A DNA stretch of 64,000 bases from Daejeonella sp. JGW-45 (GTDB taxonomy: Bacteria; Bacteroidota; Bacteroidia; Sphingobacteriales; Sphingobacteriaceae), in the NCBI RefSeq assembly GCF_029360805.1, contig NZ_JARKNC010000002.1, forward strand, positions 470,635 through 534,634. Reading direction: 5' to 3'. The notes under the pieces are model-generated. The model worked only from the letters and a program-made list of their open reading frames with translations. It made no database searches and was not told the origin of the DNA. Positions 2,561 to 56,036 of this stretch are shown piece by piece. Position 1 is the first letter of the stretch; each line of letters opens with the position of its first letter. Both the position numbers and the translations under genes were made by a program.

Positions 2561-2648
2561 AGGATTAGGTGTTAGGCATCAGGCGTTAGGCGTTAGGGCC
2601 TCACCCATTCCCTAATACCTAATACCTAATACCTAAAGCCTAATACCT
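2561..2648. repeat. Heptad inverted array A (CCTAATA family)
   Basis: The spacer between rho and pssA is almost wholly a 7-base repeat array. The left arm (2561-2598) runs TTAGGTG, TTAGGCA, TCAGGCG, TTAGGCG, TTAGGG; the right arm (2611-2648) runs CCTAATA three times, CCTAAAG, CCTAATA. The arms are imperfect reverse complements around a 12-base loop, so the RNA would form a long hairpin. There is no T-run as in a classical terminator. See array findings. Confidence 0.85.
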
Positions 2649-2657
2649 GTTCTCAAA

Positions 2658-3347
2658 ATGAAAAAACACATCCCAAATACCGTAACATGCCTGAACCTTT
2701 TCAGCGGTTGCCTTGGGGTTGTATTTGCATTCGAGGGAAACCTGCACTGGGCGTCGTATGCCATCTTTATAGCAGCAGTTTTCGACTTTCTTGACGGAAT
2801 GCTGGCACGTTTGTTACAAGCATATTCGGACATAGGAAAGGAACTTGATTCGTTGGCGGATGTGGTGAGCTTCGGTTTTCTCCCGTCGGTGATCATATAC
2901 CAGCTTTTCCAGCAATCTGCACACCCATACTCTTCCTGGCTTAATTATACAGCTTTCCTTATTGTTATTTTCTCAGCATTGAGGTTAGCCAAGTTCAACA
3001 TTGACACCAGGCAATCAGATAATTTCATTGGATTCCCGACGCCGGCAAATGCTATTCTTATCGCTTCGCTTCCATTTATAGCAGATCAGGGTATATTCAT
3101 GTCATTTCTACCAGGCAGTCCCTTGTTCCTGGTTGTACTTAGCCTTGGGATGGGACTATTATTAGTTTCGGAAATACAACTTATATCCTTAAAATTCAAG
3201 GGACTTAACCTGAATGCGAACGCCCATCGTTATATTTTGGTAATTTCCTCGCTCGTTCTCCTTCTATTACTTAAATTTGCCGCTGTTCCATTAATAATAC
3301 TTTTATACTTTCTAATATCATTCATCCATTTCAGATCAACAAAATGA
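2658..3347 (+). CDS. pssA: CDP-diacylglycerol--serine O-phosphatidyltransferase
   Basis: An integral membrane enzyme that makes phosphatidylserine, the precursor of phosphatidylethanolamine, from CDP-diacylglycerol and serine. The CDP-alcohol phosphotransferase signature DG(x2)AR(x8)G(x3)D(x3)D is complete at residues 46-68 (D46, G47, A50, R51, G60, D64, D68). Several hydrophobic helices follow, ending in a strongly hydrophobic C-terminal third (VISSLVLLLLLKFAAVPLII). The 229-residue length fits the Bacillus-type PssA. ATG start at 2658; the stop overlaps purS by four bases (ATGA), so the two are translationally coupled. Confidence 0.94.
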   Translation: MKKHIPNTVTCLNLFSGCLGVVFAFEGNLHWASYAIFIAAVFDFLDGMLARLLQAYSDIGKELDSLADVVSFGFLPSVIIYQLFQQSAHPYSSWLNYTAFLIVIFSALRLAKFNIDTRQSDNFIGFPTPANAILIASLPFIADQGIFMSFLPGSPLFLVVLSLGMGLLLVSEIQLISLKFKGLNLNANAHRYILVISSLVLLLLLKFAAVPLIILLYFLISFIHFRSTK

Positions 3348-3595
3348 AGTTTATAGCCGAAGTTAATATAATGCCACTTAAGGAAATTCTTGATCCTCAG
3401 GGAAAAGCAGTGACGGGCAGTATGAAAAACCTGGGATTACAGGAAATTCAGAATGTCAGGGTTGGCAAGCATATTACACTCGAGGTAGACGCTGAAAATG
3501 AGGCTGCTGCACGTCAAAAAGTAGATGAGGCCTGTAGAAAATTATTGGCAAATCTGATCATGGAAAGCTATGAATTTGATCTACGCCAAGCCTGA
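3344..3595 (+). CDS. purS: Phosphoribosylformylglycinamidine synthase subunit PurS
   Basis: PurS is the small bridging subunit that lets the PurQ glutaminase and the small-type PurL work together in the fourth step of purine synthesis. At 83 residues it is the normal PurS length and shows the family pattern MPLKEILDPQGKAVTGSMKN, the GLQEIQNVRVGKHITLEVDA strand and the C-terminal NLIMESYEFDL. It overlaps the pssA stop by four bases. No purL or purQ lies nearby, so the pairing with pssA is not a pathway operon. It converges on the HPt gene with only five bases between stops. Confidence 0.92.
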   Translation: MKFIAEVNIMPLKEILDPQGKAVTGSMKNLGLQEIQNVRVGKHITLEVDAENEAAARQKVDEACRKLLANLIMESYEFDLRQA

Positions 3596-3600
3596 TCAGG

Positions 3601-3969
3601 TTACTGCAGATCCTTTTTTACTTCAGCAAGCTTAGTAAAAAAATCGCCGCTAAAATCGTAGAGTGACTTAAATGCGGGGGCTATCTTTTCGGTATTAACA
3701 AGGCTGCGCGCATTTGCTTCGATTTCAGCCATTCCCTCTCTGGCGGCATCCGCTCCCATGAACGCCAGCGTTGGCTTAATTTTATGAGCTATTTCCGCAA
3801 CCTTAGCCCAGTTCTCCTCACTTATAAACTGTTTTAACTGCTCAAAGTAACCTGGTGTCTGATCAAGAAATAATTCTATCATTTCAACCATAAACTCGTT
3901 GCTTCCGCTGGATACGTCCCGCAGGTATGAGAGATCAATTTTAAACTCGGATTTAGAACTTTCAGGCAT
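3601..3969 (-). CDS. HPt (histidine phosphotransfer) domain protein
   Basis: A stand-alone HPt four-helix protein of 122 residues that would carry a phosphate on histidine between receiver domains. The phosphoacceptor site is AEIAHKIKPTLAFMGAD with His at residue 62, matching the AHxLK(G/P)xxxxxG pattern. A helix before it (FMVEMIELFLDQTPGYFEQL) is typical of the family. No histidine kinase or receiver gene is next to it, so its partners lie elsewhere. It sits just upstream of nothing in the same direction except the gap to purS; folK lies seven bases upstream and probably shares its transcript. Confidence 0.88.
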   Translation of the reverse strand: MPESSKSEFKIDLSYLRDVSSGSNEFMVEMIELFLDQTPGYFEQLKQFISEENWAKVAEIAHKIKPTLAFMGADAAREGMAEIEANARSLVNTEKIAPAFKSLYDFSGDFFTKLAEVKKDLQ

Positions 3970-3976
3970 AACAGCG

Positions 3977-4459
3977 CTAAGATAGTTTTTTTACGAATAA
4001 AGTATCCGACAAATCCTCCAATAAACGGGTTATTGATTTGTTAAAAACCGGATGGATGTATGCAGGAGCTATTTCACTCAGTGGCTGAAGACAAAAGCGC
4101 CGTTCGTGAAGGAAAGGATGCGGTATCTTTAGATCAGGTTTATTTATCACACGATTTCCGTAGAATAAGATATCGATATCTATGGTCCTGGATCCCCACT
4201 TCTCTCTTCTCTCCCTTCCCAGTTCTGTTTCAATTTTCAGGATCCCTTCCAGTAGATCTTCCGGGTTTAATTCTGTTTCAACCATAAGTGCCTGGTTTAC
4301 GAAATCCGGTTGATCGTGCACCCCCCATGAAGCCGTCTGGTAAACAGATGAGCGCGCCTTTATGATACCCAGTCTTTCGCTTATAAGGCGAGCAGCCTCC
4401 GTAAGGTATTTTCGCCGGTCGCCCAGATTGCTTCCTAATATCAAATATGTGTTATACAT
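3977..4459 (-). CDS. folK: 2-amino-4-hydroxy-6-hydroxymethyldihydropteridine pyrophosphokinase
   Basis: HPPK transfers pyrophosphate from ATP to 6-hydroxymethyl-dihydropterin in folate synthesis. Family motifs are all visible: LILGSNLGDRRKYL at the N-terminus, QPDFVNQALMVET in the middle, and the signature RWGSRTIDIDILFYG-like segment (here KWGSRTIDIDILFYGNRVI), then IPHPFLHERRFCLQPLSEIAP. The 160-residue length is standard. It is the first gene of a folK-HPt transcript and is divergent from sppA, a gene pairing seen in other Bacteroidota. Confidence 0.95.
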   Translation of the reverse strand: MYNTYLILGSNLGDRRKYLTEAARLISERLGIIKARSSVYQTASWGVHDQPDFVNQALMVETELNPEDLLEGILKIETELGRERREKWGSRTIDIDILFYGNRVINKPDLKIPHPFLHERRFCLQPLSEIAPAYIHPVFNKSITRLLEDLSDTLFVKKLS

Positions 4460-4545
4460 GCTATTTTAAAGCTCTCTGTAACAAATCGGCGTGTTGAGAC
4501 TCTGTATTTTAGTATACTTGCATAGTTAGAAATTTTGACCCTTAT

Positions 4546-6312
4546 ATGAAAGAATTTTTCAAATTTGTTTTTGCTTCGATGGTGGGCGTGATACTCTCCT
4601 TTTTTGCACTGTTTATTCTTTTTATCGTTTTCGTAACAGCCATCGTGGCCTCGGCCGGGAAGGACGGAAAAGTTGAGGTTGCATCAAATAGCGTGGTTCA
4701 CATCAGCCTGGACTATCCTATCTCCGAAAGGACTGACAAAAATCCGCTGGCAGCCTTTGATTTTATGGGATTTGAGGGCAAAAAAAACCTCGGGCTCAAA
4801 GAGATCATCGGTGGTATAAAAGCTGCTGAGACCGATAAGAATATAAAAGGCATCTATCTTGACGCCTCATCACTATCAGCCGGTTTTGCTACGATCGAGG
4901 AGATCAGGAACGCTCTTATTGATTTCAAAAAAAGCGGAAAGTTTATCATTGCATATAGCGAGGTTTATTCGCAGGGTGCGTATTATCTCGCAACGGCGGC
5001 TGATAAAATATACCTGAACCCCGAGGGTATAGTGGATTTCAGGGGCTTAAGCTCAGAAAGTGTCTTCTTTAAAGGCGCGCTGGATAAATTAGGTATCGAA
5101 GCCCAGGTTATTAAGGTTGGCACATACAAAAGCGCGGTGGAGCCTTTTATCCTGGATAAAATGAGCGAGCCTAACCGTCAGCAGGTAACTTCATTTCTGG
5201 GATCTATGTACGATCACTTTCTTTCTGAAATTTCAGAAAGCCGGAAAATCCCAAAGGCAACCTTGTTCTCACTTGCCGACAGCGCAAAGATCCGGGATCC
5301 TAAAGATGCTGTCACTTTTAAGATGATTGATGGCTTACGCTACAAAGACCAGGTACTTGATGAGTTGAAATCACGTACAGGTATTGATAAAAAGAAGGAT
5401 GTGAAGTCTGTTAGCCTGGAAGAATATGCTCCAACCGAAGAGAAAAGTACCGGCTCCTCAAACAGGATCGCCGTTATATATGCCAACGGTGAAATAATAA
5501 GCGGCGAAGGCAGCGATAAGGCCATGGGGTCTGAAAGGATTTCCAGGGCTATTCGTAAAGCACGGACGGACGATAAGATCAAAGCGGTTGTGCTCCGGGT
5601 GAATTCACCCGGCGGAAGTGCGCTTGCTTCAGATGTCATGTGGAGAGAAGTGGTACTCACCAAAAAGGTAAAGCCGGTTATTGTTTCAATGGGTGATGTT
5701 GCTGCTTCGGGCGGGTACTACATTGCCTGCGCTGCAGATTCTATCTTCGCCCAGCCGAACACAATCACTGGATCAATCGGGGTTTTCGGGATCATTCCTA
5801 ATATGCAGAAATTCTTTAATGATAAGCTCGGGATAACCTTCGACGGTGTTAAGACTGGTACCTTTGCCGATCTTGGAGATGTAAGCCGCCCTCTTACAGA
5901 CGCTGAAAGATTGATCATCCAGCACCAGGTTAACAATATCTACAATACATTCACAAAAAAAGTTGCTGATGGACGCAACAAGTCGCAGGCTTATGTCGAC
6001 AGCATCGGCCAGGGCCGGGTATGGAGCGGAACCGAGGCTTTAAAGAACGGGCTCGTCGACAGGCTTGGTGATATTGATGATGCCATTGCATCGGCCGCTA
6101 AAAAAGCTAACCTGAAAGACTACAGGATAGTCAGTTATCCTGCACAGGTTGACCCCCTAAAATCGTTATTTAATGACTCGGCTGACAAAGTCCGCGTTTA
6201 CTTTGCCCGAAGAGAGCTGGGGGATAATTTCACCTATTACGAGCAATTAAAATCGGCGATAGGCCTTTCGGGGATCCAGGCCAGAATGCCTTATAACATT
6301 ACTATTAAGTAG
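4546..6312 (+). CDS. sppA: Signal peptide peptidase SppA, 67K type
   Basis: A membrane-anchored serine protease with a Ser-Lys dyad that degrades cleaved signal peptides. An N-terminal membrane segment (about residues 8-35) is followed by two tandem S49 domains. The general-base lysine is in VGTYKSAVEPF (K195) and the nucleophile in GDVAASGGYYIAC (S388), with the GSIGVFGIIPN strand after it, which matches the 67K long form (E. coli K209/S409). The 588-residue length agrees. A terminator hairpin follows. Confidence 0.95.
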   Translation: MKEFFKFVFASMVGVILSFFALFILFIVFVTAIVASAGKDGKVEVASNSVVHISLDYPISERTDKNPLAAFDFMGFEGKKNLGLKEIIGGIKAAETDKNIKGIYLDASSLSAGFATIEEIRNALIDFKKSGKFIIAYSEVYSQGAYYLATAADKIYLNPEGIVDFRGLSSESVFFKGALDKLGIEAQVIKVGTYKSAVEPFILDKMSEPNRQQVTSFLGSMYDHFLSEISESRKIPKATLFSLADSAKIRDPKDAVTFKMIDGLRYKDQVLDELKSRTGIDKKKDVKSVSLEEYAPTEEKSTGSSNRIAVIYANGEIISGEGSDKAMGSERISRAIRKARTDDKIKAVVLRVNSPGGSALASDVMWREVVLTKKVKPVIVSMGDVAASGGYYIACAADSIFAQPNTITGSIGVFGIIPNMQKFFNDKLGITFDGVKTGTFADLGDVSRPLTDAERLIIQHQVNNIYNTFTKKVADGRNKSQAYVDSIGQGRVWSGTEALKNGLVDRLGDIDDAIASAAKKANLKDYRIVSYPAQVDPLKSLFNDSADKVRVYFARRELGDNFTYYEQLKSAIGLSGIQARMPYNITIK

Positions 6313-6342
6313 ATTCAGGTTACTGTACAATAATTATTATAT

Positions 6343-6379
6343 CAACCCTTCCCTTTTCAGGGCAGGGTTGCTTATTTTT
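6343..6379 (+). terminator. Rho-independent terminator after sppA
   Basis: CAACCCT at 6343-6349 pairs with AGGGTTG at 6364-6370, and an inner CCCT/AGGG pair (6351-6354, 6359-6362) closes on a TTTC loop with one mismatch between the two parts. It is followed by CTTATTTTTG. Confidence 0.7.
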
Positions 6380-6395
6380 GGGCTTACCACAATTC

Positions 6396-8069
6396 ATGGA
6401 AAACAAATCAATAGCGAGAACTTTACGTCTTCTAAGCCAGCTCATGGAGCTTCATGATGAAAATCCTTTCAAGGTTAAGTCTGTTGCGAACGCTGCTTTT
6501 AAAATTGATAAACTCCCCTATCCCATTATTGGAAAAACCCTTGCTGAAATGGAACAGATTGATGGCTTAGGTAAAAGCATCGCTTCAAAGGTCTGGGCTT
6601 TAACTCAAACCAATACGATTTCAGAATTAAGCGAGCTTTTGGCTCAGACACCTCCGGGGATTGTGGAGATGATGAGAATCAAAGGATTGGGGCCGAAGAA
6701 GGTTATTGTTATATGGAAAGAGCTGGGAATTGAGAGTGTAGGCGAGCTCTACTACGCCTGCAACGAGAACAGGCTGATCGAAGCAAAAGGCTTCGGCCTG
6801 AAAACACAGGAAGAAATAAGGAAAACCATCGAATTTAATATGGCCAGCGACGGCCGTTTCCTTTACGCCGGGATAGAGCATTTCACCGAGGATCTTCATC
6901 GGAAACTTAAAGCTGAATTTAAAACAGAAATGGTTTTCATTACCGGCCAGTACCGCCGGCGTTGCGAAATTATTGATTCGCTCGATATTCTTATAATTGC
7001 TGAACTTACCGGTAGTGTCCCCCAGGCAATGGAAATTTTAGGCCTGAAGCCTGAATTTGTCACCGCGAATAGCATAGACTGCATCACCGATGCTGGTATT
7101 AAGATCAAGCTTATCTTTTGCAGCAGTGCGGATATGGGCTGGCAGATGATCCTGAATACAGGAAGCAAATCGCATACCGACGAATTGGCATTGAAACTAG
7201 TGAATGTTGACGTCGCTTATAAAAGCGAGCCGGAAATTTACTCACTTGCCGGCATGCCTTATATTGAACCTGAGCTCCGCGAGGGACTTAACGAATTTGA
7301 ACTCGCAGCGACAAATAAAATTCCTGATCTATTAGCTTATGGGGATCTGAAGGGCACATTACATAATCACAGTACCTGGAGTGACGGAGTACATACGCTT
7401 GAGGAAATGGCGCTATTCTGCCGGGATGAATTGAATCTGAACTATTTGGGCATTTGCGACCACTCAAAGTCGGCATTTTATGCCAACGGTTTAAATGAAG
7501 TCCGGGTAGCTGCTCAGCAAAGGGAAATCGACGGACTAAATAAGATGCTTGCCCCTTTTCATATTTTCAAAGGTATTGAATCAGATATTCTGTACGACGG
7601 ATCGCTCGATTACCCGGACGACGTGCTGGAGACGTTCGATTTTGTAGTCGCTTCAATACATTCGATCCTCAATATGAATGAGGAAAAGGCAACGGAAAGA
7701 TTAATAAAGGCTATTGAGAACCCTTTTACTACCATACTTGGCCATCCTACCGGCAGACTTCTCCTGAGCAGAAGCGGTTACCCTATCGATCACCGGAAAG
7801 TTATAGACGCCTGTGCGGCAAACCAGGTAATTATTGAGATAAATTCCAATCCGTTAAGGCTTGACCTGGACTGGCGGTGGCACCAATACGCCATTGAAAA
7901 AGGTATTCTTTTATCAGTTAATCCGGACGCACACCGCAAGGAAGGTTTTTACGATATGCGTTACGGCACCCTCATAGCAAGAAAAGGAGGTTTGTCAAAA
8001 CTCAACTGTTTAAATGCTATGAACAAAGAACAAGTGCAGGAAATTTTTAACAGGCGAAAAAGAAGCTGA
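6396..8069 (+). CDS. PolX-like protein: helix-hairpin-helix / nucleotidyltransferase remnant / PHP phosphoesterase
   Basis: A 557-residue protein of the bacterial PolX family (DNA polymerase X plus PHP exonuclease, linked to base-excision repair). The N-terminal third holds the 8-kDa and helix-hairpin-helix parts (IDGLGKSIASKVWAL, MRIKGLGPKKV, GFGLKTQEEIRKTI). The nucleotidyltransferase motif that is normally GSxRRGKExxGDIDxL reads GQYRRRCEIIDSLDIL, so the first catalytic Asp is Ser and the glycines are lost. The C-terminal PHP domain looks intact: LHNHSTWSDG, GICDHSKSA, GHPTGR, SVNPDAHR. I take the ATG at 6396; a TTG 18 bases upstream lies against the terminator. The glycosyltransferase starts two bases after its stop. 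Confidence 0.88.
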   Translation: MENKSIARTLRLLSQLMELHDENPFKVKSVANAAFKIDKLPYPIIGKTLAEMEQIDGLGKSIASKVWALTQTNTISELSELLAQTPPGIVEMMRIKGLGPKKVIVIWKELGIESVGELYYACNENRLIEAKGFGLKTQEEIRKTIEFNMASDGRFLYAGIEHFTEDLHRKLKAEFKTEMVFITGQYRRRCEIIDSLDILIIAELTGSVPQAMEILGLKPEFVTANSIDCITDAGIKIKLIFCSSADMGWQMILNTGSKSHTDELALKLVNVDVAYKSEPEIYSLAGMPYIEPELREGLNEFELAATNKIPDLLAYGDLKGTLHNHSTWSDGVHTLEEMALFCRDELNLNYLGICDHSKSAFYANGLNEVRVAAQQREIDGLNKMLAPFHIFKGIESDILYDGSLDYPDDVLETFDFVVASIHSILNMNEEKATERLIKAIENPFTTILGHPTGRLLLSRSGYPIDHRKVIDACAANQVIIEINSNPLRLDLDWRWHQYAIEKGILLSVNPDAHRKEGFYDMRYGTLIARKGGLSKLNCLNAMNKEQVQEIFNRRKRS

Positions 8070-8071
8070 TT

Positions 8072-10645: not shown

Positions 10646-10719
10646 GAATTCAAAATCCACATATTTTCAGAACAAGCCAAAAATTTAAGTCTTATGTGCG
10701 CAGTAGTAAGGAAACGGTA

Positions 10720-10843
10720 TGGGGGAAGCGGAAAATGGGAAATGGGGAATGGGGAATGGGAAACAGAGAATAGGTGTTCATGTGACTGGCATCTCCTAAT
10801 CAATTAGACATTAACACGTGACTCGCATCTCTTTACTCGCTTC
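10720..10843. repeat. Heptad array B (TGGGGAA family)
   Basis: The spacer between rsmG and dprA carries heptads on the plus strand from about 10722: GGGGAAG, CGGAAAA, TGGGAAA, TGGGGAA, TGGGGAA, TGGGAAA, CAGAGAA, TAGGTGT. The right half has a 14-base unit, GTGACTxGCATCTC, twice (from 10782 and 10818), then TTTACTCGCTTC. The right half resembles the end of array C (ACTCGCTTC). There is little left/right complementarity, so this copy looks decayed. Confidence 0.75.
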
Positions 10844-13180: not shown

Positions 13181-13257
13181 GCGTAAGAAATCATTTAATG
13201 GGTAAATTTCTGATTTTTCAGCTAACAATCGGTATGGTTTGCGAAATAAAAATGTAG

Positions 13258-13336
13258 TGGGAAGCGAGATGAGGGAAGCGAGTCTTGCCTATTTCCTATT
13301 TCCGTTTCCCCCATCCTGTTACTCGCTTCTATTTGC
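13258..13336. repeat. Heptad array C (GGGAAGC / TCCTATT family)
   Basis: The spacer between GT2 and tgt reads as heptads: GGGAAGC, GAGATGA, GGGAAGC, GAGTCTT, GCCTATT, TCCTATT, TCCGTTT, CCCCCAT, CCTGTTA, CTCGCTT, CTATTTG. GAAGCGAG on the left pairs with CTCGCTTC on the right. The array ends on the tgt -7 element. Its right end resembles that of array B. Confidence 0.8.
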
Positions 13337-13344
13337 TATTTTTG
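13337..13344 (+). promoter_or_regulatory. -7 element of the tgt promoter
   Basis: TATTTTTG is an exact match to the Bacteroidota -7 consensus TAnnTTTG, 17 bases before the tgt ATG. The -33 position falls inside array C, where only CTG, not TTG, is seen at the right spacing. Confidence 0.45.
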
Positions 13345-13361
13345 CAAATTATCCCAGTTGA

Positions 13362-27901: not shown

Positions 27902-27980
27902 TTGAAAGTGGAAAGTTGAAAGTGGAAAGTGAGGCGAACCTCGATATAACGCTTTCAACTTTCCACTTTCAACTTTCAAC
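27901..27980. repeat. Heptad inverted array D (GTTGAAA family)
   Basis: Left arm (27901-27930): GTTGAAA, GTGGAAA, GTTGAAA, GTGGAAA, GT. Right arm (27952-27980): CTTTCAAC, TTTCCAC, TTTCAAC, TTTCAAC. The arms pair almost completely, with a small GAGG/CCTC hairpin in the loop. It fills the whole space between the convergent peptidase and ispE genes. The same heptad reappears in array H. Confidence 0.88.
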
Positions 27981-27983
27981 TAA

Positions 27984-28885: not shown

Positions 28886-29021
28886 TAAATTAAAACGCAG
28901 AGAGCACAAAGTACACGCTAAGGGCGCAAAGCTTGCATAACCCATAATGAAGGCTTTAGCAAATGTTCGTCACGCTACTTTGCACCCTCTGCGAAAAACT
29001 TTGCTACCTCTGCGGTTAAAA
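28886..29021. repeat. Heptad inverted array E (TTTGCxx-CCTCTGC family)
   Basis: The right arm (28974-29021) reads TTTGCAC, CCTCTGC, GAAAAAC, TTTGCTA, CCTCTGC, GGTTAAA, a 21-base unit made of three heptads. The left arm (28886-28933) is its imperfect complement (TTAAAACGCAGAGAGCACAA and on). About 40 bases separate the arms. It lies between the divergent ispE and thyA genes, so it must flank or carry their promoters. A GCGC-TTC-GCGC mini-hairpin at 28864-28874 precedes it. Confidence 0.8.
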
Positions 29022-30464: not shown

Positions 30465-33431
30465 ATGCAAGGTAAAGGACTAGTTAAATTCGCCGCAATA
30501 GCATTAACGCTTGCGTGTTTATATTCACTCTCATTTACGTGGATAGCGAATAAAGTTGAAAAGGATGCGCAAGAGTTTGCGAAAGGTGATCCCTCAAAAG
30601 AAAAATCTTATCTCGATTCTGTCGCTTCACTACCTGTATTCAGCAGCCTGAGTTATATCACCTACGAATACGCCAAACAACGTGAAATACCTCTCGGACT
30701 CGACCTGAAAGGTGGAATGAATGTGACCATGGAAATTGCGCTTAGCGACATGGTGCGTAACCTGGCTAACAACAATCCGGACGCTAACTTTAATGCAGCT
30801 ATCCGGAATGCCGAAGCGGCTGTTGCCGGTGGAGAAAACGATTTTATCGTTGCTTTCGGAAAGGAATATGAGAAGCTGAACCCAAACAGCAGGCTTGCTC
30901 CTTTATTCGCCACTAAGGAAAATTCTGGCAGTATCAAGGTTGATGCTAGTAACCAGGAGGTAATTAACTTCCTTAAAAAATCGGCCGACGGCGCTATTGA
31001 CCTATCATTTAATATCCTTCGTACCCGTATTGATAAATTTGGAGTTACGTCTCCGAACATTCAAAAACAACAAGGTACCAACCGAATCCTTATTGAGCTT
31101 CCGGGTGTTGATGACCAGGAACGTGTACGTAAGCTGTTACAGGGCTCGGCTAAACTGGAATTCTGGGAAACTTACGACAACACGGAGGTTTTTGCATTGC
31201 TTCAAAATGTGAACGGTATTTTAGCTTCAACTGTTAAAACTACCGATACTATCGCTAAAACATCAGCAGTAGCGGATACTGCAAAGAGTAAGCTTGCTGC
31301 GTTAGGCAAAGCAGATACTACCGGAAAAATAGACAGCGCAGCTGCATTAAATAAAATTCAGGCTGAACAGGCCCGGCAAAATCCACTATTTGCCATTTTA
31401 AACCCGGCAACATTCCAGGGGCAGGACGGTCAAACAGGTTTACGTCCAGGCCCGGTTGTAGGTTATGCTGCGCTAAAAGATACTGCAAAGGTAAACGCTT
31501 ATCTTTCTTCTCCACAGGCCAAAGCTGTAATCCCATCGACCATCAGGTTATTCTGGGGAGTTAAGCCGGTAACGCCGGAAAGTAAAGTATTCGAATTATA
31601 TGCTTTAAAAGCAAGCAACCTTGCTGGCGGCCCTGCTTTGGAAGGAGATGTAATCTCTGATGCACGTTCTGATTATGACCAGAGGGGAAATCCTGAGGTG
31701 GTTATGGTTATGAACGCAGATGGCGCCCGTGCCTGGAGAACACTAACAGCAAATGCGTCGGCTGATCCGAATAATAAAAAGAGTGTTGCCATAGTGCTTG
31801 ATAATCTTGTTTATTCAGCTCCAACAGTACAGGGTGAAATTCCAAATGGCATTTCTTCGATCAGTGGGAATTTTAAGATAGAAGACACCCAGGATCTTGC
31901 AAATGTTCTTAAAGCAGGAAGGCTTCCCGCCCCGGCGCGGATCGTAAGTGAATATGTAGTCGGCCCTTCACTGGGTGCCGATTCTATTTCGGCGGGACTA
32001 ATATCTACCATCGCAGGTGTTATTGTGATCCTGCTATTTATGGCTATGTATTACAGCACTGCCGGTCTCGTAGCAAACATTGCATTATTAGTCAACCTGT
32101 TCTTCCTGATGGGTGTACTCGCTTCACTCGGCGCGGTATTAACACTGCCGGGAATCGCTGGTATAGTTCTTTCGCTGGGTATGTCTGTAGATGCCAATGT
32201 GCTTATCTATGAACGGATCCGGGAAGAACTTAACGATGGTAAATCGATCAGGCTTGCAATAGCTGAAGGTTTTAGCAAAGCAATGCCTTCTATTCTTGAT
32301 TCGAATATTACCACTTTCCTCACAGGTGTAATTCTTTATGTCTTCGGTCAGGGGCCAATTGTAGGTTTTGCTACAACATTAATGATTGGTATCATAACCT
32401 CATTATTTGCGGCCATCTTTATTTCAAGACTGGTATTTGAATGGCTGCTTGAAAAGAAAAAGTCAATTAATTTCTCAATAAAAGCAACTCAAAACCTGTT
32501 TAAAGATTCAAAGTTTGATTTTATCTCAGGCCGTAGAAAATTCTATATCCTTTCCTCTGCCATCATCGTTGCAGGTATAATATCTGCTTTCACTCAGGGA
32601 TTCAGCCTTGGGGTTGATTTCTCTGGCGGACGATCTTATTTTATCTCGTTCGATAAGCCAGTTGATGTCGAAGACGTACGTGAAACCCTGACCAATACTT
32701 TCGAAGCTCCCGTAGAAGTAAAAACCTTCGGCTCGTCTAATCAGGTTAAAATAACAACTGCATATCTGATAAATGAAAATACAGATGCTGCAGATGAAAA
32801 GGTTAATATTAAACTTTCGGAGGGCCTGAAGAAAATCAGCCCGGTTTATGAGATCAAAGACTCTCAGAAAGTCGGACCAACAATGGCAGATGATATTAAG
32901 ACTTCGGCAATATATGCTGTCGGATTCTCTATCCTGGTCATATTCCTCTATATCCTCATCCGATTCAAAAGAATGGCATTTGGCTTTGCGGCAATCCTGG
33001 CCCTGGTGCATGATGTGCTTGTGCTGCTCGCAATATTTACCATCTTTAACGGATGGCTTCCATTCTCACTGGATATTGATCAGGCTTTCGTAGCCGCGAT
33101 TTTAACTGTAATGGGTTACTCTATTAACGATACAGTAGTGGTATTTGACCGCGTCCGTGAATACATCGGACAACATCATTCAAAAGATGAGAATCTGCCT
33201 ACAGTAATTAATAATGCGTTAAACAGTACCCTAAGCCGGACGGTGATCACTGGTATATGTACCATGGCAGTGCTGGTAATCATCTTCATTTTTGGCGGCG
33301 AGATCCTGAGAGGGTTCTCCTTTGCCATGCTGATCGGCGTTATATTCGGTACTTACTCCTCCCTGTTCGTAGCCACTCCATTTGTGGTTGAGTTTATCAA
33401 GGAAAAAGGAGATGATGTGAAAAAAGCATAG
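30465..33431 (+). CDS. secDF: Protein translocase subunit SecDF (fused)
   Basis: A 988-residue fusion of SecD and SecF that uses the proton gradient to drive late steps of Sec export. The SecD half has an N-terminal helix, GLDLKGGMNVTMEI, FNILRTRIDKFGV, the periplasmic head with a low-complexity Ala/Lys/Thr-rich insert (about 255-310) and the helix block around GMSVDANVLIYERIREEL. The SecF half begins about residue 680 with a new membrane helix, has GVDFSGGRSYFISF, and ends with GYSINDTVVVFDRVRE and helices. Fusion is standard for Bacteroidota. It has its own promoter and terminator. Confidence 0.96.
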   Translation: MQGKGLVKFAAIALTLACLYSLSFTWIANKVEKDAQEFAKGDPSKEKSYLDSVASLPVFSSLSYITYEYAKQREIPLGLDLKGGMNVTMEIALSDMVRNLANNNPDANFNAAIRNAEAAVAGGENDFIVAFGKEYEKLNPNSRLAPLFATKENSGSIKVDASNQEVINFLKKSADGAIDLSFNILRTRIDKFGVTSPNIQKQQGTNRILIELPGVDDQERVRKLLQGSAKLEFWETYDNTEVFALLQNVNGILASTVKTTDTIAKTSAVADTAKSKLAALGKADTTGKIDSAAALNKIQAEQARQNPLFAILNPATFQGQDGQTGLRPGPVVGYAALKDTAKVNAYLSSPQAKAVIPSTIRLFWGVKPVTPESKVFELYALKASNLAGGPALEGDVISDARSDYDQRGNPEVVMVMNADGARAWRTLTANASADPNNKKSVAIVLDNLVYSAPTVQGEIPNGISSISGNFKIEDTQDLANVLKAGRLPAPARIVSEYVVGPSLGADSISAGLISTIAGVIVILLFMAMYYSTAGLVANIALLVNLFFLMGVLASLGAVLTLPGIAGIVLSLGMSVDANVLIYERIREELNDGKSIRLAIAEGFSKAMPSILDSNITTFLTGVILYVFGQGPIVGFATTLMIGIITSLFAAIFISRLVFEWLLEKKKSINFSIKATQNLFKDSKFDFISGRRKFYILSSAIIVAGIISAFTQGFSLGVDFSGGRSYFISFDKPVDVEDVRETLTNTFEAPVEVKTFGSSNQVKITTAYLINENTDAADEKVNIKLSEGLKKISPVYEIKDSQKVGPTMADDIKTSAIYAVGFSILVIFLYILIRFKRMAFGFAAILALVHDVLVLLAIFTIFNGWLPFSLDIDQAFVAAILTVMGYSINDTVVVFDRVREYIGQHHSKDENLPTVINNALNSTLSRTVITGICTMAVLVIIFIFGGEILRGFSFAMLIGVIFGTYSSLFVATPFVVEFIKEKGDDVKKA

Positions 33432-35326: not shown

Positions 35327-35329
35327 ACG

Positions 35330-35382
35330 GGGTAAGAGTGTTACTCTCTCATAGCTCAACACTCATAGCCCAAAACACTAAC
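35330..35382. repeat. Heptad array I (CTCATAG family)
   Basis: Five heptads at 35348-35382: CTCATAG, CTCAACA, CTCATAG, CCCAAAA, CACTAAC. A short left part (GTAAGAGTGTTAC at 35332-35344) is partly complementary to the last unit. This is a one-sided, shortened copy between the ferredoxin and NADH dehydrogenase genes. Confidence 0.65.
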
Positions 35383-36707: not shown

Positions 36708-36800
36708 GGAATGGGGGAATGGAGAATGGAGAATGGGAAATGGGAAATAGACCGGTCGCCTATTCCCTATTCGCTATTTCCTATTTCCTATTCCCCATCT
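36708..36800. repeat. Heptad inverted array F (GGGAATG / CTATTCC family)
   Basis: Left arm (36708-36750) is G-rich units of 7-8 bases (AATGGAG, AATGGAG, AATGGGA, AATGGGA). Right arm (36759-36800) is CTATTCC, CTATTCG, CTATTTC, CTATTTC, CTATTCC. The centre is ACCGGT. The arms pair well over about 40 bases. It fills the spacer between ndh and the lyase gene and shares its heptad with arrays B and C. Confidence 0.87.
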
Positions 36801-47351: not shown

Positions 47352-47449
47352 GTTAAGTTGTACGTTTTACGTTATAAGTTATACGTGCCGGGCGTATAAG
47401 CACAGCGTTTAGAAAACGTATCACGTACAACGTAAAACGTATAACTCAA
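47352..47449. repeat. Heptad inverted array G (GTTxTAC family)
   Basis: Left arm (47352-47386): GTTGTAC, GTTTTAC, GTTATAA, GTTATAC, GT. Right arm (47416-47449): ACGTATC, ACGTACA, ACGTAAA, ACGTATA, ACT. The arms are imperfect complements around a 29-base centre. It fills the spacer between the convergent ZIP and MarR genes. Confidence 0.88.
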
Positions 47450-50919: not shown

Positions 50920-51375
50920 TTACTTGGCAGCAGTAGTGCTTACAACGTTTCCAAGAATAGTTAACTGGGTAATTTCAGGAACCGTGTTAGCTGTGATAGT
51001 AACCACCTTGTTCTGCATTCCAGGCTTTCCCGAGCTATCGAAAACAACCTTTATTACACCCTCAGCACCCGGAGCGATCGGCTCTTTAGGGTAATCGGGA
51101 ACCGTACAGCCGCAGGTTGCTGTCGCACTGGTGATAATAAGCGGACTTTGGCCAATATTGGTGAATTTAAAATCATGCGAAACCTTTTCGCCGTCGGTGA
51201 TCTGTCCGAAATCAAATGATTCCTTTTCAAATTTGAAAACCGGGGCATTTGCGGATGCCGCCTCAGATGCAGCTGCCTCAGTTGCGGTTTCGGTTGCTGC
51301 TGATTCTTTAGGTTGCTGGTTGCTGCACGAAGCAAGTATTGCCAGGCAGGCCAGGGATAAAATGATCTTCTTCAT
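50920..51375 (-). CDS. DUF1573 lipoprotein
   Basis: A 151-residue exported lipoprotein. The lipobox is CLAILASCSNQ (Cys about 17), followed by an Ala/Glu/Thr-rich linker (about 20-48) and one DUF1573 Ig-like domain with FDFGQITDGEKVSHDFKFTN, TATCGCTVPDYPKEPI (the family's CGC motif) and GMQNKVVTITAN. It lies five bases after nusB. The domain is very common in Bacteroidota and has no settled function. Confidence 0.92.
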   Translation of the reverse strand: MKKIILSLACLAILASCSNQQPKESAATETATEAAASEAASANAPVFKFEKESFDFGQITDGEKVSHDFKFTNIGQSPLIITSATATCGCTVPDYPKEPIAPGAEGVIKVVFDSSGKPGMQNKVVTITANTVPEITQLTILGNVVSTTAAK

Positions 51376-51380
51376 ATAAT

Positions 51381-52328
51381 TTATTCTATTAGTCCTCTGC
51401 CGGTCTTGCGAACCTTTCCTTTGGCTTTAAGATCGGCTAAAATTTTGTCTAAAATACCGTTTATAAACGAATTACTCTTAGGAGTGCTGAATTCTTTTGC
51501 TATTTCTATATACTCATTCATGGTCACCTTGACGGGGATGGATGAAAAATGGACGAGTTCTACAATCGCCATTTTCATTAGCAAAATATCCATTACGGCA
51601 ATCCTTTCTGCCTCCCAGTTCTTTGTCTTCTGCGAGATCATTTCCTGGTATTCATTTTCGAATGCTATCACCTTATTAAAAAGGTCAAGCATAAATGGCC
51701 GGTCTTCGTCCCAGTTAGGGCAGACCTGGGCAAGACGGTTCTCCAACGGATTCTCGCTCGAAAAATTCTTGAATGTTTTAGCGATGAGCGCCTGCAATAC
51801 TTCCTTATCAACCGGCCAGTTGATAAACTTTTCCTCAAACACCTGCTCTATCCCGGGCGATTTCAGGATCAGCTTCTTAAATATGAATTTCACAATATCC
51901 TTATCGGATTTTATCGTGTGTTCCGGCAAGCCGATAAACTCCTTGTACTCGGATGACGATTTAAGGCTGGAAAATATGGCTTTGCTGATTTCAGGATCAA
52001 AATCCCAGGATATTTTATACTTCTTAACGGCGGCAAGATAGTCGGGATTCTGAAGCAGCGACTGAATAAAAAGATTATTCTTCAGCATATCAGTTGCGTT
52101 CAGGTCATCTTCAGACGGAAGGTATTTATTAGCCCTTTCCTCGGCATTAATGATGCTATAATCTGCTACCTCAACAAGCAGCGAAAGCATCCAGATATAC
52201 ATTTCATAAACCCTGTCTACAGTTTTAAGAAGTGCCTTTTCAAATGGTTTTACATCTTTTGATTCCGATTGCTGATAGGAATATAATACCTGTAACGCTT
52301 TAACCCGCAGGTGCCTTCTGTTTAACAT
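51381..52328 (-). CDS. nusB: Transcription antitermination protein NusB (long form)
   Basis: NusB binds boxA RNA with NusE during rRNA antitermination. The protein is 315 residues, about twice the E. coli length. It begins MLNRRHLRVKALQVLYSYQQ, the usual NusB start, carries a long middle insertion, and ends with the conserved NusB core ERIAVMDILLMKMAIVELVH and VKVTMNEYIEIAKEFSTPKS plus FINGILDKIL. The long form is typical of Bacteroidota. It heads a chain of close or overlapping genes. Confidence 0.93.
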   Translation of the reverse strand: MLNRRHLRVKALQVLYSYQQSESKDVKPFEKALLKTVDRVYEMYIWMLSLLVEVADYSIINAEERANKYLPSEDDLNATDMLKNNLFIQSLLQNPDYLAAVKKYKISWDFDPEISKAIFSSLKSSSEYKEFIGLPEHTIKSDKDIVKFIFKKLILKSPGIEQVFEEKFINWPVDKEVLQALIAKTFKNFSSENPLENRLAQVCPNWDEDRPFMLDLFNKVIAFENEYQEMISQKTKNWEAERIAVMDILLMKMAIVELVHFSSIPVKVTMNEYIEIAKEFSTPKSNSFINGILDKILADLKAKGKVRKTGRGLIE

Positions 52329-52362
52329 GAATAAGAACGATTTTGTATGTATAAGGCCTTTT

Positions 52363-53451
52363 TTACCAGGCCGCTTTTATTTTTCTGATATCTTCAATCC
52401 GCTTTTCAGCAATCCTGTTTGCAGCTTCACTCGTCGGAATACTTTCTTCCTTTGATTTTTTCAGCACACGCCTTGTAGCCTCGTAGATATTTTCGGTCAT
52501 CTGCAAGGTCTTCTTTTTATTAAATCCTGCTATTTCCGAGTAACAATTTATTAACCCTCCTGCGTTGATGAGGTAATCAGGAGCATATAAAATGCCCTTG
52601 TCCAGCAGCATTTTTCCATGAACCTCTTCATCAGCGAGCTGGTTATTGGCCGAGCCCGCAATTATTGAACACTTTAAGCGGTTAATGGTTTCCGTATTGA
52701 CGGTAGCGCCCAGTGCGCAGGGTGAATAAATATCTATATCGAGATCAAAGAGACTATTGGTAGAGATTGCTTCTGCGCCGTATTTTTGAGCCACCTGTCC
52801 CAGGCGTTCCTCGTTTATGTCGCTGACATATACTTTTGCACTTTCGTTTCTTAGCAAGCCTACAAGGATTTCGCCTACATGACCGATACCTTGTACAGCA
52901 ACAGACTTCCCGGCAAGACTGTCATTCCCGAAAAACTCCTTTACAGACGCCTTTATTCCCATAAAGACACCTCTCGCGGTTACAGGCGATGGGTCGCCGC
53001 TTCCTCCGATAGATTCAGGGATCCCCGTCACATATTTTGTCTCCATCCGGATATATTCCATATCCTTAGGATTCATACCCACATCCTCAGCTGTAATAAA
53101 TGAGCCGTTAAGGTTTTCGATAAACCTGCCGAAGCGTCTCATCAAAGCTTCACTCTTATGCAGCCGGCTGTCTCCTATTATGACAGCCTTTCCGCCTCCA
53201 AGGTTCAGCCCGGTAATCGCAGCCTTGTAGGTCATGCTGCGCGACAGACGCAAAACGTCGTTTAATGCTTCTGTCTCCGTCTTATAAGCAAACATCCTGG
53301 TACCGCCCAGTGCGGGACCTAAAGTAGTATCGTGTACGGCTATAATTGCTCTCAGACCGGTACCCGGGTCACTGCAATATACAACGTTCTGATGACCTGA
53401 TTTTTCAAGCTTACTGAAAACCGAATGTTCATCAAATTGAGACAATACCAT
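52363..53451 (-). CDS. Leucine dehydrogenase (Glu/Leu/Phe/Val dehydrogenase family)
   Basis: A 362-residue NAD-dependent amino acid dehydrogenase that deaminates branched-chain amino acids. Visible are LGPALGGTRMFAYKTETEAL, the catalytic lysine region YKAAITGLNLGGGKAVI, the Rossmann motif VAVQGIGHVGEILVGLL and IVAGSANNQLADE-type sequence (here IIAGSANNQLADEE). The size and the short N-terminus fit the leucine dehydrogenase subgroup. It is 34 bases upstream of nusB. HMG-CoA lyase at 36.8 kb belongs to the same degradation route. Confidence 0.9.
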   Translation of the reverse strand: MVLSQFDEHSVFSKLEKSGHQNVVYCSDPGTGLRAIIAVHDTTLGPALGGTRMFAYKTETEALNDVLRLSRSMTYKAAITGLNLGGGKAVIIGDSRLHKSEALMRRFGRFIENLNGSFITAEDVGMNPKDMEYIRMETKYVTGIPESIGGSGDPSPVTARGVFMGIKASVKEFFGNDSLAGKSVAVQGIGHVGEILVGLLRNESAKVYVSDINEERLGQVAQKYGAEAISTNSLFDLDIDIYSPCALGATVNTETINRLKCSIIAGSANNQLADEEVHGKMLLDKGILYAPDYLINAGGLINCYSEIAGFNKKKTLQMTENIYEATRRVLKKSKEESIPTSEAANRIAEKRIEDIRKIKAAW

Positions 53452-53473
53452 ATCTGCTACCTTAGTTACGTCA

Positions 53474-53481
53474 CAAAAGTA
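53474..53481 (-). promoter_or_regulatory. -7 element of the leucine dehydrogenase promoter
   Basis: On the minus strand TACTTTTG matches TAnnTTTG exactly, 22 bases before the start at 53451. No clear -33 TTG. Confidence 0.42.
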
Positions 53482-53551
53482 GCAAAATTTCCAAATTTAG
53501 ACAGCTCAGCAAAAAGTCTTCCCGGTTTTATTTGATCTATTAATGATCGTC

Positions 53552-53583
53552 TTCGCCTAAATCACAAATTCTGGCTATTTTTG
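53552..53583 (+). promoter_or_regulatory. Promoter of the ABC transporter gene
   Basis: TTCG at 53552-53555 (near TTTG) and, 20 bases on, TATTTTTG at 53576-53583 (exact TAnnTTTG), 17 bases before the ATG. Confidence 0.45.
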
Positions 53584-53600
53584 ACAGATCCGCTTCCCCG

Positions 53601-55385
53601 ATGAAAGAACTCGCATATCTCAATAAGTTTTTCTACAAATACCGCTGGAGGTTTCTTCCCGGGATTTTATTCGTCATCATATCGAATATTTTCGGAGTGC
53701 TTCCTGCACAGGTTATCCAGATAGCCTTCGATTTGGTTAGTGAAAACATAACAGTTTACAGGCTGTTCAGCGGGTTTGACCGGCAGGATGTGATCAACGA
53801 AATATTCGGGCATACGTTAATGCTTTTCGGCATTATCGTGCTGACACTTGCGCTCCTTCGCGGCATTTTCCTGTTCTTCATGCGGCAAACCATCATCCTG
53901 ATGTCCAGGCATATTGAATATGACCTGAAAAACGAGATATATAACCATTATCAGCGTTTGTCAATGGCCTTTTATCGCCGTAATAATACCGGCGATCTAA
54001 TGAACCGGGTTACCGAAGATGTGAGCAGGGTTAGGATGTACCTTGGCCCGGCTATCATGTATACGATCAATACCCTGGTATTATTTATCATGATCGTGAG
54101 CTTCATGTTTAGCGTTAATGCAAAGCTTGCTTTATATTCCCTTCTTCCCCTGCCCCTCCTTGCTATAACTATCTACTATGTAAATACCATGATCAACAAC
54201 CGGAGCGAGAAGATACAGGAACAGTTATCTGCTCTGTCCAGCTTTGTACAGGAAACCTTTTCCGGGATACGCGTTATTAAAGCTTATGTGCGGGAAGACG
54301 ATGTAAGAGAAAAATTCAATACCGAGAGCGAAAACTATAAATCGCAATCCATGGCCCTCGTACAGGTGCAGGCCTTGTTCTTCCCGCTCATACTGCTGCT
54401 TGTCGGTTTAAGTACGATCATTACCGTTTATATCGGGGGCATAGAGGTAATGAACGGTACAATAACCTCCGGAAATATTGCTGAGTTTATTGTGTATGTA
54501 AACCAGCTGACATTCCCGGTCATGTCGTTAGGATGGGTTACATCCCTGATCCAGCGGGCTGCCGCTTCACAAAAAAGGATTAACGAATTCCTGCATACCG
54601 AACCAGAGATCGTTTCCGCTAAAGCAGAGCCGGCTGTTATCCAGGGCGGAATTGAGTTTAAGAACGTAAGCTTCACCTACCCGGATACCGGAATTCAGGC
54701 TTTAAAAAGCGTATCGTTCGAAGTTAAGCCCGGAGAATTTTTAGCGATAATCGGCCGTACAGGATCAGGGAAATCTACCATCGCTAACCTGCTCATGAGA
54801 ATGTACGATGCCAGCCAGGGGGATATCCTCATTGATGGCAAAAGAGTGCAGGATATTGATCTCAATAGTTTCAGGCAGCAGGTCGGCTTTGTGCCGCAGG
54901 AAGTATTTTTGTTTTCAGACAGCATCAGGAATAATATCGCATTCGGCATAGCAGACCCGGATAATGACAGTGTCGAAAACGCGGCAAAGAACGCTGTTGT
55001 TTATCATAACATACAAGAGTTTGAGAAGGGCTTTGAAACCCTGATCGGCGAAAGGGGAATTACGCTGTCGGGCGGCCAGAAGCAAAGGCTCTCTATTGCC
55101 CGCGCTATTATTAAAGAGCCGCAGATCCTTATTTTCGACGACTGCCTGTCGGCTGTTGATACCAAAACCGAAGAGCAGATCCTCCGCAATTTGGGCAAAG
55201 TGATGAAAAATAAAACCAGCATAGTAATTGCACACCGCGTTTCAACGATTAAAAATGCCGACAAAATACTGGTCATGGATGGCGGTGAGATCATGGAACA
55301 GGGCAGCCACAGAACACTCATGACAAAAAAAGGCATCTACTTCGACTTATACGAAAAGCAGCTTTTGGAAGAGCAGGCAGTGTAA
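53601..55385 (+). CDS. MsbA-like ABC transporter, permease and ATPase fused
   Basis: A 594-residue half-transporter that would act as a homodimer to export lipids or other hydrophobic molecules. Six membrane helices (about 15-320) precede the ATPase with Walker A IIGRTGSGKSTIANLL (about 382-397), Q-loop VGFVPQEVFLFSDS, signature LSGGQKQRLSIARAI, Walker B ILIFDDCLSAVD (the usual catalytic Glu position after the Asp is Cys-preceded Asp, here D-D) and the H-loop IVIAHRVST. Divergent from leucine dehydrogenase. Confidence 0.93.
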   Translation: MKELAYLNKFFYKYRWRFLPGILFVIISNIFGVLPAQVIQIAFDLVSENITVYRLFSGFDRQDVINEIFGHTLMLFGIIVLTLALLRGIFLFFMRQTIILMSRHIEYDLKNEIYNHYQRLSMAFYRRNNTGDLMNRVTEDVSRVRMYLGPAIMYTINTLVLFIMIVSFMFSVNAKLALYSLLPLPLLAITIYYVNTMINNRSEKIQEQLSALSSFVQETFSGIRVIKAYVREDDVREKFNTESENYKSQSMALVQVQALFFPLILLLVGLSTIITVYIGGIEVMNGTITSGNIAEFIVYVNQLTFPVMSLGWVTSLIQRAAASQKRINEFLHTEPEIVSAKAEPAVIQGGIEFKNVSFTYPDTGIQALKSVSFEVKPGEFLAIIGRTGSGKSTIANLLMRMYDASQGDILIDGKRVQDIDLNSFRQQVGFVPQEVFLFSDSIRNNIAFGIADPDNDSVENAAKNAVVYHNIQEFEKGFETLIGERGITLSGGQKQRLSIARAIIKEPQILIFDDCLSAVDTKTEEQILRNLGKVMKNKTSIVIAHRVSTIKNADKILVMDGGEIMEQGSHRTLMTKKGIYFDLYEKQLLEEQAV

Positions 55386-55507
55386 GTTTCCCACCCATAT
55401 CCGGACGCCTGTTTGAATCCATGGCGTTCATCCAAATAAACAAGCAAAAAATCAATTTGTAACTTTGAGAATATCTGTTATATTTACCCCAACCTAAAAA
55501 AATAATA

Positions 55508-55834
55508 ATGGGAGATTTCGACAACAAGGAAAGAGAAGAGGTTTTTTCAAAAAAGGTAAGAGCGGGGAAGCGCACCTATTTTTTCGATGTTAAAGCTACA
55601 CGCTCAAACGATTACTATGTTACTGTAACAGAAAGCAAAAAACGTTTAGAAGACGGTGTTTTTATTAAACACAAAATTTTCTTGTACAAAGAAGACTTTG
55701 AAAAATTTGCTGAAGGTCTCAAAGAAACCATTGATTACATTAAAGCCAACCAGGAAGTTGTAGAGAAAAGGTACGAATATTCAGAAAATCATACCGAAGC
55801 TAAGGTCGAAGACGATTTTTCGTTCGAAATATAA
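55508..55834 (+). CDS. DUF3276 (PUR-alpha-like) protein
   Basis: A 108-residue protein of the bacterial PUR-alpha-like family, which binds single-stranded nucleic acid in the one member studied structurally. The core is VFSKKVRAGKRTYFFDVKAT, YYVTVTESKKRLEDG and HKIFLYKEDFEKFAEGLKE (about 13-85), a beta4-alpha Whirly-like fold; the tail is acidic. It is common in Bacteroidota. A terminator follows. Confidence 0.9.
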   Translation: MGDFDNKEREEVFSKKVRAGKRTYFFDVKATRSNDYYVTVTESKKRLEDGVFIKHKIFLYKEDFEKFAEGLKETIDYIKANQEVVEKRYEYSENHTEAKVEDDFSFEI

Positions 55835-55855
55835 AAAGAACACGTTGAGATATTA

Positions 55856-55886
55856 AAAGCTGTTCGCTGCCGCGGATGGCTTTTTT
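55856..55886 (+). terminator. Rho-independent terminator after the DUF3276 gene
   Basis: A 12-pair stem (55856-55867 with 55872-55883, three G-T pairs) with a TGCC loop and a TTTTTT tail. Confidence 0.75.
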
Positions 55887-55900
55887 GTTGCCTAAATTTC

Positions 55901-55908
55901 TATCTTTG
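55901..55908 (+). promoter_or_regulatory. -7 element of the ychF promoter
   Basis: TATCTTTG matches TAnnTTTG exactly. If used, the transcript would start near 55915 and include all of array H in its leader. Confidence 0.42.
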
Positions 55909-55913
55909 CAGCC

Positions 55914-56036
55914 GGATTGGTGATCGGTGATCGGTGATCGGGAACCAGTAATCGGTGATCAGTAGTCAATAATCAGTAACCAAGTACAACTTTCAACTTT
56001 CAACCCGATAGCTATCGGGTTTCAACTTTCAACTCA
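55914..56036. repeat. Composite heptad array H (GGTGATC and AACTTTC families)
   Basis: First part: GGTGATC three times, GGGAACC, AGTAATC, GGTGATC, AGTAGTC, AATAATC, AGTAACC (55919-55981). Second part: AACTTTC repeats (from 55988), the same heptad as the right arm of array D, interrupted at 56005-56019 by a 15-base palindromic insert after which the heptad phase resumes. It lies directly upstream of ychF. Confidence 0.85.
56002..56021. other. 20-base perfect palindrome inside array H
   Basis: AACCCGATAGCTATCGGGTT reads the same on both strands. Removing the 15 bases CCGATAGCTATCGGG restores an unbroken AACTTTC heptad array, so it looks like an insertion. Confidence 0.8.

Follow-up and report, generated by a model that had tools for sequence, protein, structure and literature searches.

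The 64,000-nucleotide (nt) stretch of Daejeonella sp. JGW-45 analyzed here (positions 470,635 to 534,634 of contig NZ_JARKNC010000002.1; hereafter the window) carries intergenic arrays of imperfect 7-nt tandem units, or heptads, some of them laid out as two facing, complementary arms. These arrays are interpreted, with moderate confidence, as a dispersed neutral or selfish heptanucleotide satellite that occupies noncoding DNA in Daejeonella and many other Bacteroidota and evolves at the DNA level. Units would multiply by a slippage-like process locked to 7 nt, arrays would spread until they met coding or promoter sequence, and units would be homogenized locus by locus, so that facing arms would often share units and could therefore pair. 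The hairpins that some arrays can form appear to be a by-product and not a selected feature.

Period, polarity, and units of the arrays

Sixty arrays with self-similarity at lag 7 were found in 131 kb of spacer DNA (47 of 600 spacers), compared with none after every spacer had been dinucleotide-shuffled once; lags between 3 and 30 other than multiples of 7 gave 0 to 4 arrays each. This density sample covered 1.064 Mb (26%) of the genome holding the window (4.1 Mb in 10 contigs); the full own-genome sample consisted of the window and 57 stretches of 20 kb (29%), 7 of which had been chosen for hits. In total, 16 stretches from this and related genomes (Gnnn denotes genomes compared, and Lnnn denotes sampled stretches) were chosen in this way. 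They were left out of all array densities and included in the sets used for arm pairing, units, within-array variation, placement, and mirror order, as well as in the polarity counts by gene order and the first of each pair of inward polarity counts given below. Genes were called with a simple caller that missed at least one gene (2658 to 3347, with a Pfam match), and spacer edges are therefore approximate. In an earlier own-genome set of 804 kb, which includes stretches chosen for hits, 58 arrays lay in 93 kb of spacers and 3 in genes. The period of 7 and the intergenic location proposed in the first-pass annotation of the window are thus borne out in the genome sample, with enrichment of lag 7 in spacers over shuffled sequence. 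Scaled from 60 per 1.064 Mb, the genome would hold approximately 230 arrays. In stretches of other genomes not chosen for hits, lag-7 arrays numbered 31 in 220 kb (G018), 10 in 80 kb (G003), 9 in 80 kb (G019), 7 in 120 kb (G009), 7 in 160 kb (G001), 5 in 240 kb (G012), and 1 in 20 kb (G006), and none was found in 80 kb of G015. Stop codons in all frames were rejected as a cause of the period, as stop trinucleotides in G-rich units stood at 0.60 compared with 0.61 predicted from composition.

The arrays share a polarity, with their G-rich strand directed from either side toward the spacer interior. Forty spacers had several skewed arms, and in 32 of these a G-rich arm was followed by a C-rich arm, which upholds the earlier claim of paired inverted arms. 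No simple C-G order was found; the remainder were G-G (3), C-C (2), G-C-C (2), and one long series containing a C-G step. Without the stretches chosen for hits, the orders were G-C in 25, G-G in 4, C-C in 2, G-C-C in 1, and one longer series with a C-G step. Taken singly, arms that were G-rich in the left half of the spacer or C-rich in the right half outnumbered the opposite by 138:38 (115:35 without stretches chosen for hits). By the order of the flanking genes, the counts were 50:15 (++), 40:13 (--), 43:6 (+-), and 17:8 (-+; p = 0.11, not significant by itself). The own genome gave 56:11 without stretches chosen for hits, and little polarity was seen on the same basis in G019 (6:4) and G012 (4:3). 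Skew in array spacers reached 0.36. Spacers free of arrays were only weakly skewed (-0.076 to 0.061 when divided into thirds), divergent ones slightly in the same sense, and the ordinary hairpins of array-free spacers were not G-first (13 G-first, 21 C-first, and 12 ties). Start codons were rarer on the C-rich strand than in permuted units (0.08 versus 0.17), a scarcity that could favor the polarity, though only at start-side flanks.

Arrays tended to adjoin stop codons, at a median distance of 6 nt. On stop-side flanks an array lay within 10 nt of the stop in 97 of 168 cases, compared with a mean of 62 and a maximum of 72 in 300 random placements; start-side flanks showed no preference (27 of 128, with 25 at random). 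Arrays occurred in 15 of 84 spacers between convergent genes, a higher share than the 40 of 399 between tandem genes and the 6 of 117 between divergent genes (convergent versus rest, p = 0.018). Arrays seem to occupy DNA that is not otherwise needed.

The 212 arms from 148 array spacers, oriented by their G-rich strand, comprised 92 distinct units, so that the proposal of many unit sequences at one period stands. It had also been held that the heptads are unrelated between most loci, and this was not upheld: 86 of the 92 units (206 of 212 arms) belonged to one network of one-letter changes, compared with a mean largest component of 49 (maximum, 73) in 200 sets of letter-permuted units, and the network had 140 edges compared with a permuted mean of 72. 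The units are better seen as neighbors in one cloud than as unrelated sequences. The common generating process that the first-pass annotation had put forward is supported, as are the period and the inward polarity. The aligned consensus was approximately R-W-N-A-G-B-W, with an AG core at positions 4 and 5. A profile built from the own genome scored the units of G009, G018, G003, G006, and outgroup loci above permuted units (p = 0.002 to 0.036; for the 20 outgroup-locus units, p = 0.006), and its fit to 13 units of G019 was not clear (p = 0.11). Within the genus, the likeness of units may reflect common descent. The AG core had 93 matches in the own genome, compared with 1 for a swapped-core pattern. 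Across 247 Bacteroidota genomes, with overlapping matches counted, the real core pattern was found in 120 and the swapped core (RWNGABW repeated four times) in 92. Thus, Daejeonella has a strong AG core that does not extend across the phylum, other lineages carry other heptads, and heptad arrays are common in Bacteroidota.

Turnover was followed in three relatives, G031, G032, and G034, whose DNA is 86 to 92% identical. Among 26 spacers orthologous between G032 and G034, arrays were present in both at 5 and in neither at 21. The G031/G032 comparison (65 spacers) gave both at 4, one only at 6, and neither at 55, and that of G031 with G034 (28 spacers) gave both at 4, one only at 2, and neither at 22. 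Presence and absence therefore vary among relatives. The spacer upstream of thyA has 69 nt identical in all three genomes, and the units directly behind this segment differ, with an AAG retained in register when they are aligned. G032 and G034 share one arm of another spacer but not its second arm, which has been replaced, and one spacer differs between relatives by a single unit. The first-pass annotation had held that arrays fixed at the same sites and lacking family structure would speak against it; the same sites do recur, but the units at them change.

Complementary arms, an RNA role, and candidate generators

A significant inverted repeat was present in 45 of the 148 array spacers (3 skipped for length), and long hairpins as the organizing feature, as had been suggested, are not supported. 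Where arms do face each other, they pair better with their own partner than with arms swapped in from other loci in their genome (mean score, 14.9 versus 8.4; 37 pairs), and 16 of the 37 own pairs ranked in the top tenth against swapped arms. Such an excess would be produced if fold-back or template-switch synthesis copied the first arm as a mirror-image second arm and kept repairing it, a type of mechanism described for hairpins (PMC8794818). Copying of this kind should leave the variant units in mirrored order. Among the 25 of 37 pairs that paired well and varied, 13 lay above the shuffled mean and none reached p = 0.05 (combined p = 0.58), and mirror-copy fold-back was rejected on this result. 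Furthermore, the facing arms at L127, L139, and L153 (at 18141) have different units and are still inward; these pairs had been selected for a G-rich arm followed by a C-rich one, and the opposite order was never found as a simple pair. A variant with one ancient fold-back event whose products were later scrambled may be envisaged, but fold-back synthesis as a whole is considered unlikely. Pairing seems to follow from unit sharing.

The arrays could instead be RNA hairpins at transcript 3' ends, acting as terminators or stabilizers, with complementary arms kept by selection. The excess of array spacers between convergent genes, the abutment of arrays on stop codons, and the predicted fold of one window array (array D, -45.5 kcal/mol), whose stem recurs in L020, L022, and L023, are in keeping with this. 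The paired stems themselves are not: on the transcribed strand in tandem spacers, array stems showed no excess of G.U over A.C (50:44; p = 0.61), and the lack of mirrored unit order and the limited number of spacers with a significant inverted repeat also count against selection for pairing. On the + strand, the G.U:A.C counts were 24:21 (convergent) and 6:1 (divergent) in array spacers and 6:7 and 1:5, respectively, in non-array controls. A TTTT tract within 15 nt downstream occurred in 10 of 90 tandem cases, no more often than in random spacer 15-mers (60 of 422). Intrinsic terminators, which combine a stem with a following T-tract, were rejected on these counts, as were RNA-selected hairpins on the mismatch and T-tract results together. 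The shared RNA role offered in the first-pass annotation is thus not supported, and an RNA function for the arms is judged improbable. Not every long intergenic hairpin should be taken for an RNA element.

An exact period, shared units, and an inward polarity resemble directed addition of units, and a dedicated mobile or polymerase activity might write heptads with this polarity; reverse transcriptase or telomerase-like enzymes, a Y1 transposase, and an end-joining or translesion system were considered. The patchy distribution within the genus fits such a writer, as the core pattern was found in 18 of 20 Daejeonella genomes and was not found in G013 or in G015, the genome lacking arrays in 80 kb. 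None of the gene families tested tracked the arrays. RVT_1 (3 of 20 genomes) and Ku (6 of 20, G015 among them) did not match array presence; IMS (17 of 20) was present in G015 and was not found in the array-bearing G011 (92% complete) and G017 (87% complete); and Y1_Tnp (13 of 20) was not found in the array-rich G002 and G018. The last result also led to rejection of repetitive extragenic palindromes (REP) or their REPIN doublets driven by a Y1 transposase of the RAYT (REP-associated tyrosine transposase) type. A dedicated writer is accordingly given only a small probability. Loss of the palindrome nuclease SbcCD was considered as a further cause. SbcD was detected by TIGR00619 in 2 of 20 Daejeonella genomes (13 of 14 controls matched, 8 over the cutoff), and SbcD_C was detected in none of the 20 (6 of 14 controls). 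Significant inverted repeats occurred in 3 of 6 array spacers of the SbcD-positive G001, in 0 of 7 of the SbcD-positive G012, and in 30 of 110 in five genomes without SbcD. Because G001 has both SbcD and inverted repeats, SbcCD loss is not the cause.

Several results weigh against a neutral satellite maintained at the DNA level. The inward polarity needs an extra cause, and nothing tested accounts for it. Length differences between orthologous spacers of relatives were multiples of 7 in only 2 of 13 cases; strict whole-unit steps were rejected for this reason and are not the sole change. One array shared by G032 and G034 has kept its units (TCAACTC/TCAACTG); in G031 alone, the same spacer contains 15 consecutive perfect copies of TCAACTG. 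A stem at array D is present in four genomes, which makes this array the strongest candidate for a stem that has been retained. In ordinary hairpins of tandem spacers without arrays, G.U outnumbered A.C by 31:14, and as the contrast of this ratio with 50:44 reached only p = 0.10, the mismatch test is suggestive and not final. Lastly, the consensus carries 2.87 bits, modestly more than permuted units do (mean, 2.58; maximum, 2.79 of 15), and variation within arrays is slightly uneven, at 0.11 to 0.19 per position (p = 0.0005) with the minimum at position 5. This unevenness and the modest consensus leave room for weak protein binding. If the arrays were repeated sites for a DNA- or RNA-binding protein, the common AG core and the low variation at position 5 would be explained, and binding of S1, Csp, or Csr has been proposed for another heptad repeat, TAACTGA (PMC4679880). 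A near-even spread of variation over the seven positions and as many as 92 distinct units are difficult to reconcile with site recognition, making this explanation very unlikely.

Heptad loci of the window

The first-pass annotation had listed nine loci (A to I) with a period of 7. Each was tested against 500 dinucleotide shuffles for lag 7 (floor, p = 0.002) and 60 for inverted arms (floor, p = 0.016). The lag-7 floor was reached at seven, A, B, C, D, G, H, and I, in spacers starting at 2560, 10661, 13229, 27902, 36708, 47348, and 55835, respectively. Tandem Repeats Finder likewise reported period 7 at 7 of the 9 loci, with none at E or F. Complementary arms had been claimed for A, D, E, F, and G; the arm floor was reached at A, D, E, and G but not at F, C and H are to be added, and B and I also lay above the floor. 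None of the loci lies inside a called gene, as had been stated, except that the period-7 stretches of D and G overlap a stop codon.

Array A (2565 to 2648) is directly 3' of the rho gene (916 to 2559) and has a G-rich arm of the TTAGGYG type (2565 to 2597) and a C-rich arm of the CCTAATA type (2604 to 2648). Array B (10716 to 10763; lag-7 score, 21.2) is a single G-rich arm of the GGGAATG type, a second arm not being significant (p = 0.49). At locus C (13234 to 13352), a weak heptad run of the CCTATTT type (13285 to 13310; score of only 10.2) sits within a longer imperfect inverted pair, with divergent genes on either side. Array D (27904 to 27981) takes up the whole of a convergent spacer between S9 peptidase and GHMP kinase genes and reaches the stop codon at each end, its arms lying at 27904 to 27931 (GTTGAAA/GTGGAAA) and 27952 to 27981. 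Array G (36714 to 36798) consists of a GAATGGG arm (36714 to 36748) and a CCTATTC arm (36759 to 36798), and its spacer has 16 matches in the own genome, itself among them. Array H (47354 to 47445), in a convergent spacer, has GTTRTAC (47354 to 47386) and GTAYAAC (47416 to 47445) arms. The loop between them contains GCACAGCGTTTAG (47397 to 47409), which also occurs in L118 and L143, the latter from another genome, and is possibly a shared core. Array I (55915 to 56034; lag-7 score, 32.4) runs from a G-rich arm (GGTGATC/AGTAATC) into C-rich ACTTTCA heptads, with p = 0.13 for the arms as one inverted repeat.

The two remaining loci differ from these. Locus E (28896 to 28993), upstream of the thymidylate synthase gene thyA (Thymidylat_synt), is an inverted pair with CGCAAAG/CTTTGC-like segments (CGCAGAGAGCACAAAGTA / TACTTTGCACCCTCTGCG); its best lag was 5 (lag-7 p = 0.042), and it is another kind of element than the heptad arrays. 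Locus F (35329 to 35371) contains four loose CTCATAG heptads and was not significant for lag 7 (p = 0.096; best lag, 14) or for arms (p = 0.066).

A perfect 20-nt palindrome, AACCCGATAGCTATCGGGTT, lies at 56002 to 56021, flanked by the ACTTTCA heptads of array I. Its core, CCGATAGCTATCGG, has 11 copies in the 804-kb set, 8 of them in spacers, of which 3 have a lag-7 array; it was also seen within an array spacer of G031. Near position 10020 of L014, a dispersed repeat that contains CGACCACCTTCGGGGTCG and TTTATAGA forms a long inverted pair, and 11-mers of this repeat recur in 6 to 7 spacers of the sample. In an Rfam search of the window, a single element, a tRNA, reached its gathering score. 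ARAGORN identified a second tRNA-Arg(ccg) at 57375 to 57446 beside one at 57188 to 57260; Rfam reports the first only, and the second may be degenerate or false.

Comparison with known heptad repeats

Short tandemly repeated repetitive (STRR) sequences of heterocystous cyanobacteria are heptameric tandem repeats, and the first-pass annotation had drawn on this cyanobacterial context for comparison. The host is a member of the Bacteroidota, and two STRR units scored low on the Daejeonella profile (0.71 and 1.8). A 988-residue protein encoded at 30465 to 33431 is 91% identical to its counterpart in Daejeonella lutea and 84 to 87% identical to several other Daejeonella or Sphingobacteriaceae records, which identifies a Daejeonella-type genome and not a cyanobacterium. 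A cyanobacterial origin and STRR membership were thus rejected.

Earlier work has already described heptad repeats between genes, pairs of them that face each other, and a rule for their placement (PMC4692102, PMC4679880, and the 2007 study of Mrazek et al. as cited there). According to these descriptions, 7 nt is the most abundant unit size among long simple sequence repeats in most prokaryotic genomes. The Daejeonella arrays resemble such repeats in having a 7-nt tandem unit beyond chance in intergenic DNA and differ from them, as described, in that the units form one connected cloud with a spacer-inward polarity. In open-access titles and abstracts, no description was found of such arrays in Sphingobacteriaceae or of polarity in units without G-tracts. 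The arrays bear on why bacterial genomes prefer seven-base repeats, a question left open in the literature so described. Daejeonella offers array-rich genomes, two genomes without the core pattern (G013 and G015), kept sites with changing units, and polarity free of G-tracts, features that make this question testable by comparison of sister species.

TAACTGA direct repeats are reported from Beggiatoaceae, cyanobacteria, and five Bacteroidetes (PMC4679880). They are described as lying just upstream of start codons, whereas the Daejeonella arrays prefer the stop side, have many units, and include paired arms. Among five known units compared, TAACTGA in reverse complement (ATCAGTT) scored best on the Daejeonella profile; the window arrays use other units. 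The P6b stem-loop of the Nostoc trnL intron has a stem of seven-nucleotide repeats in which one class is replaced by another at the same site (PMC4476775), like the replacement of heptads at single sites in Daejeonella. That stem-loop is part of a self-splicing intron RNA of cyanobacteria, whereas the Daejeonella arrays are dispersed and intergenic.

The closest parallel in layout lies in the GGGAATC and GGGGA(C/T)T repeats of Xanthomonas and Nostoc, intergenic heptads that vary in length and sequence between species. Two Xanthomonas genomes have 70 and 75 facing heptad pairs, and a placement rule is described for the G-rich heptads of both genera (PMC4692102). The Daejeonella arrays share the facing inverted pairs and the placement rule with the Xanthomonas repeats, and the inward polarity is thus not private to the own genome. 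The GGGAATC type is one G-rich, quadruplex-capable family, and its pairs and placement rule could suggest that the Daejeonella arrays are G-quadruplex elements as well. Most Daejeonella units (125 of 192 skewed arms) lack GG or CC yet follow the same rule, with inward polarity in 100:25 (81:22 without stretches chosen for hits); the polarity is therefore not a quadruplex effect, and quadruplex formation, contradicted for most units, is extremely improbable as the explanation. A bolder proposal, held to be rather unlikely, is that Bacteroidota, Xanthomonas, and cyanobacteria all have a polar process, tolerant of most sequences, by which 7-nt units are written or expanded with the G-rich strand inward. 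Were this true, the period of 7 and the inward polarity would be signatures of one shared activity and not of the repeats themselves.

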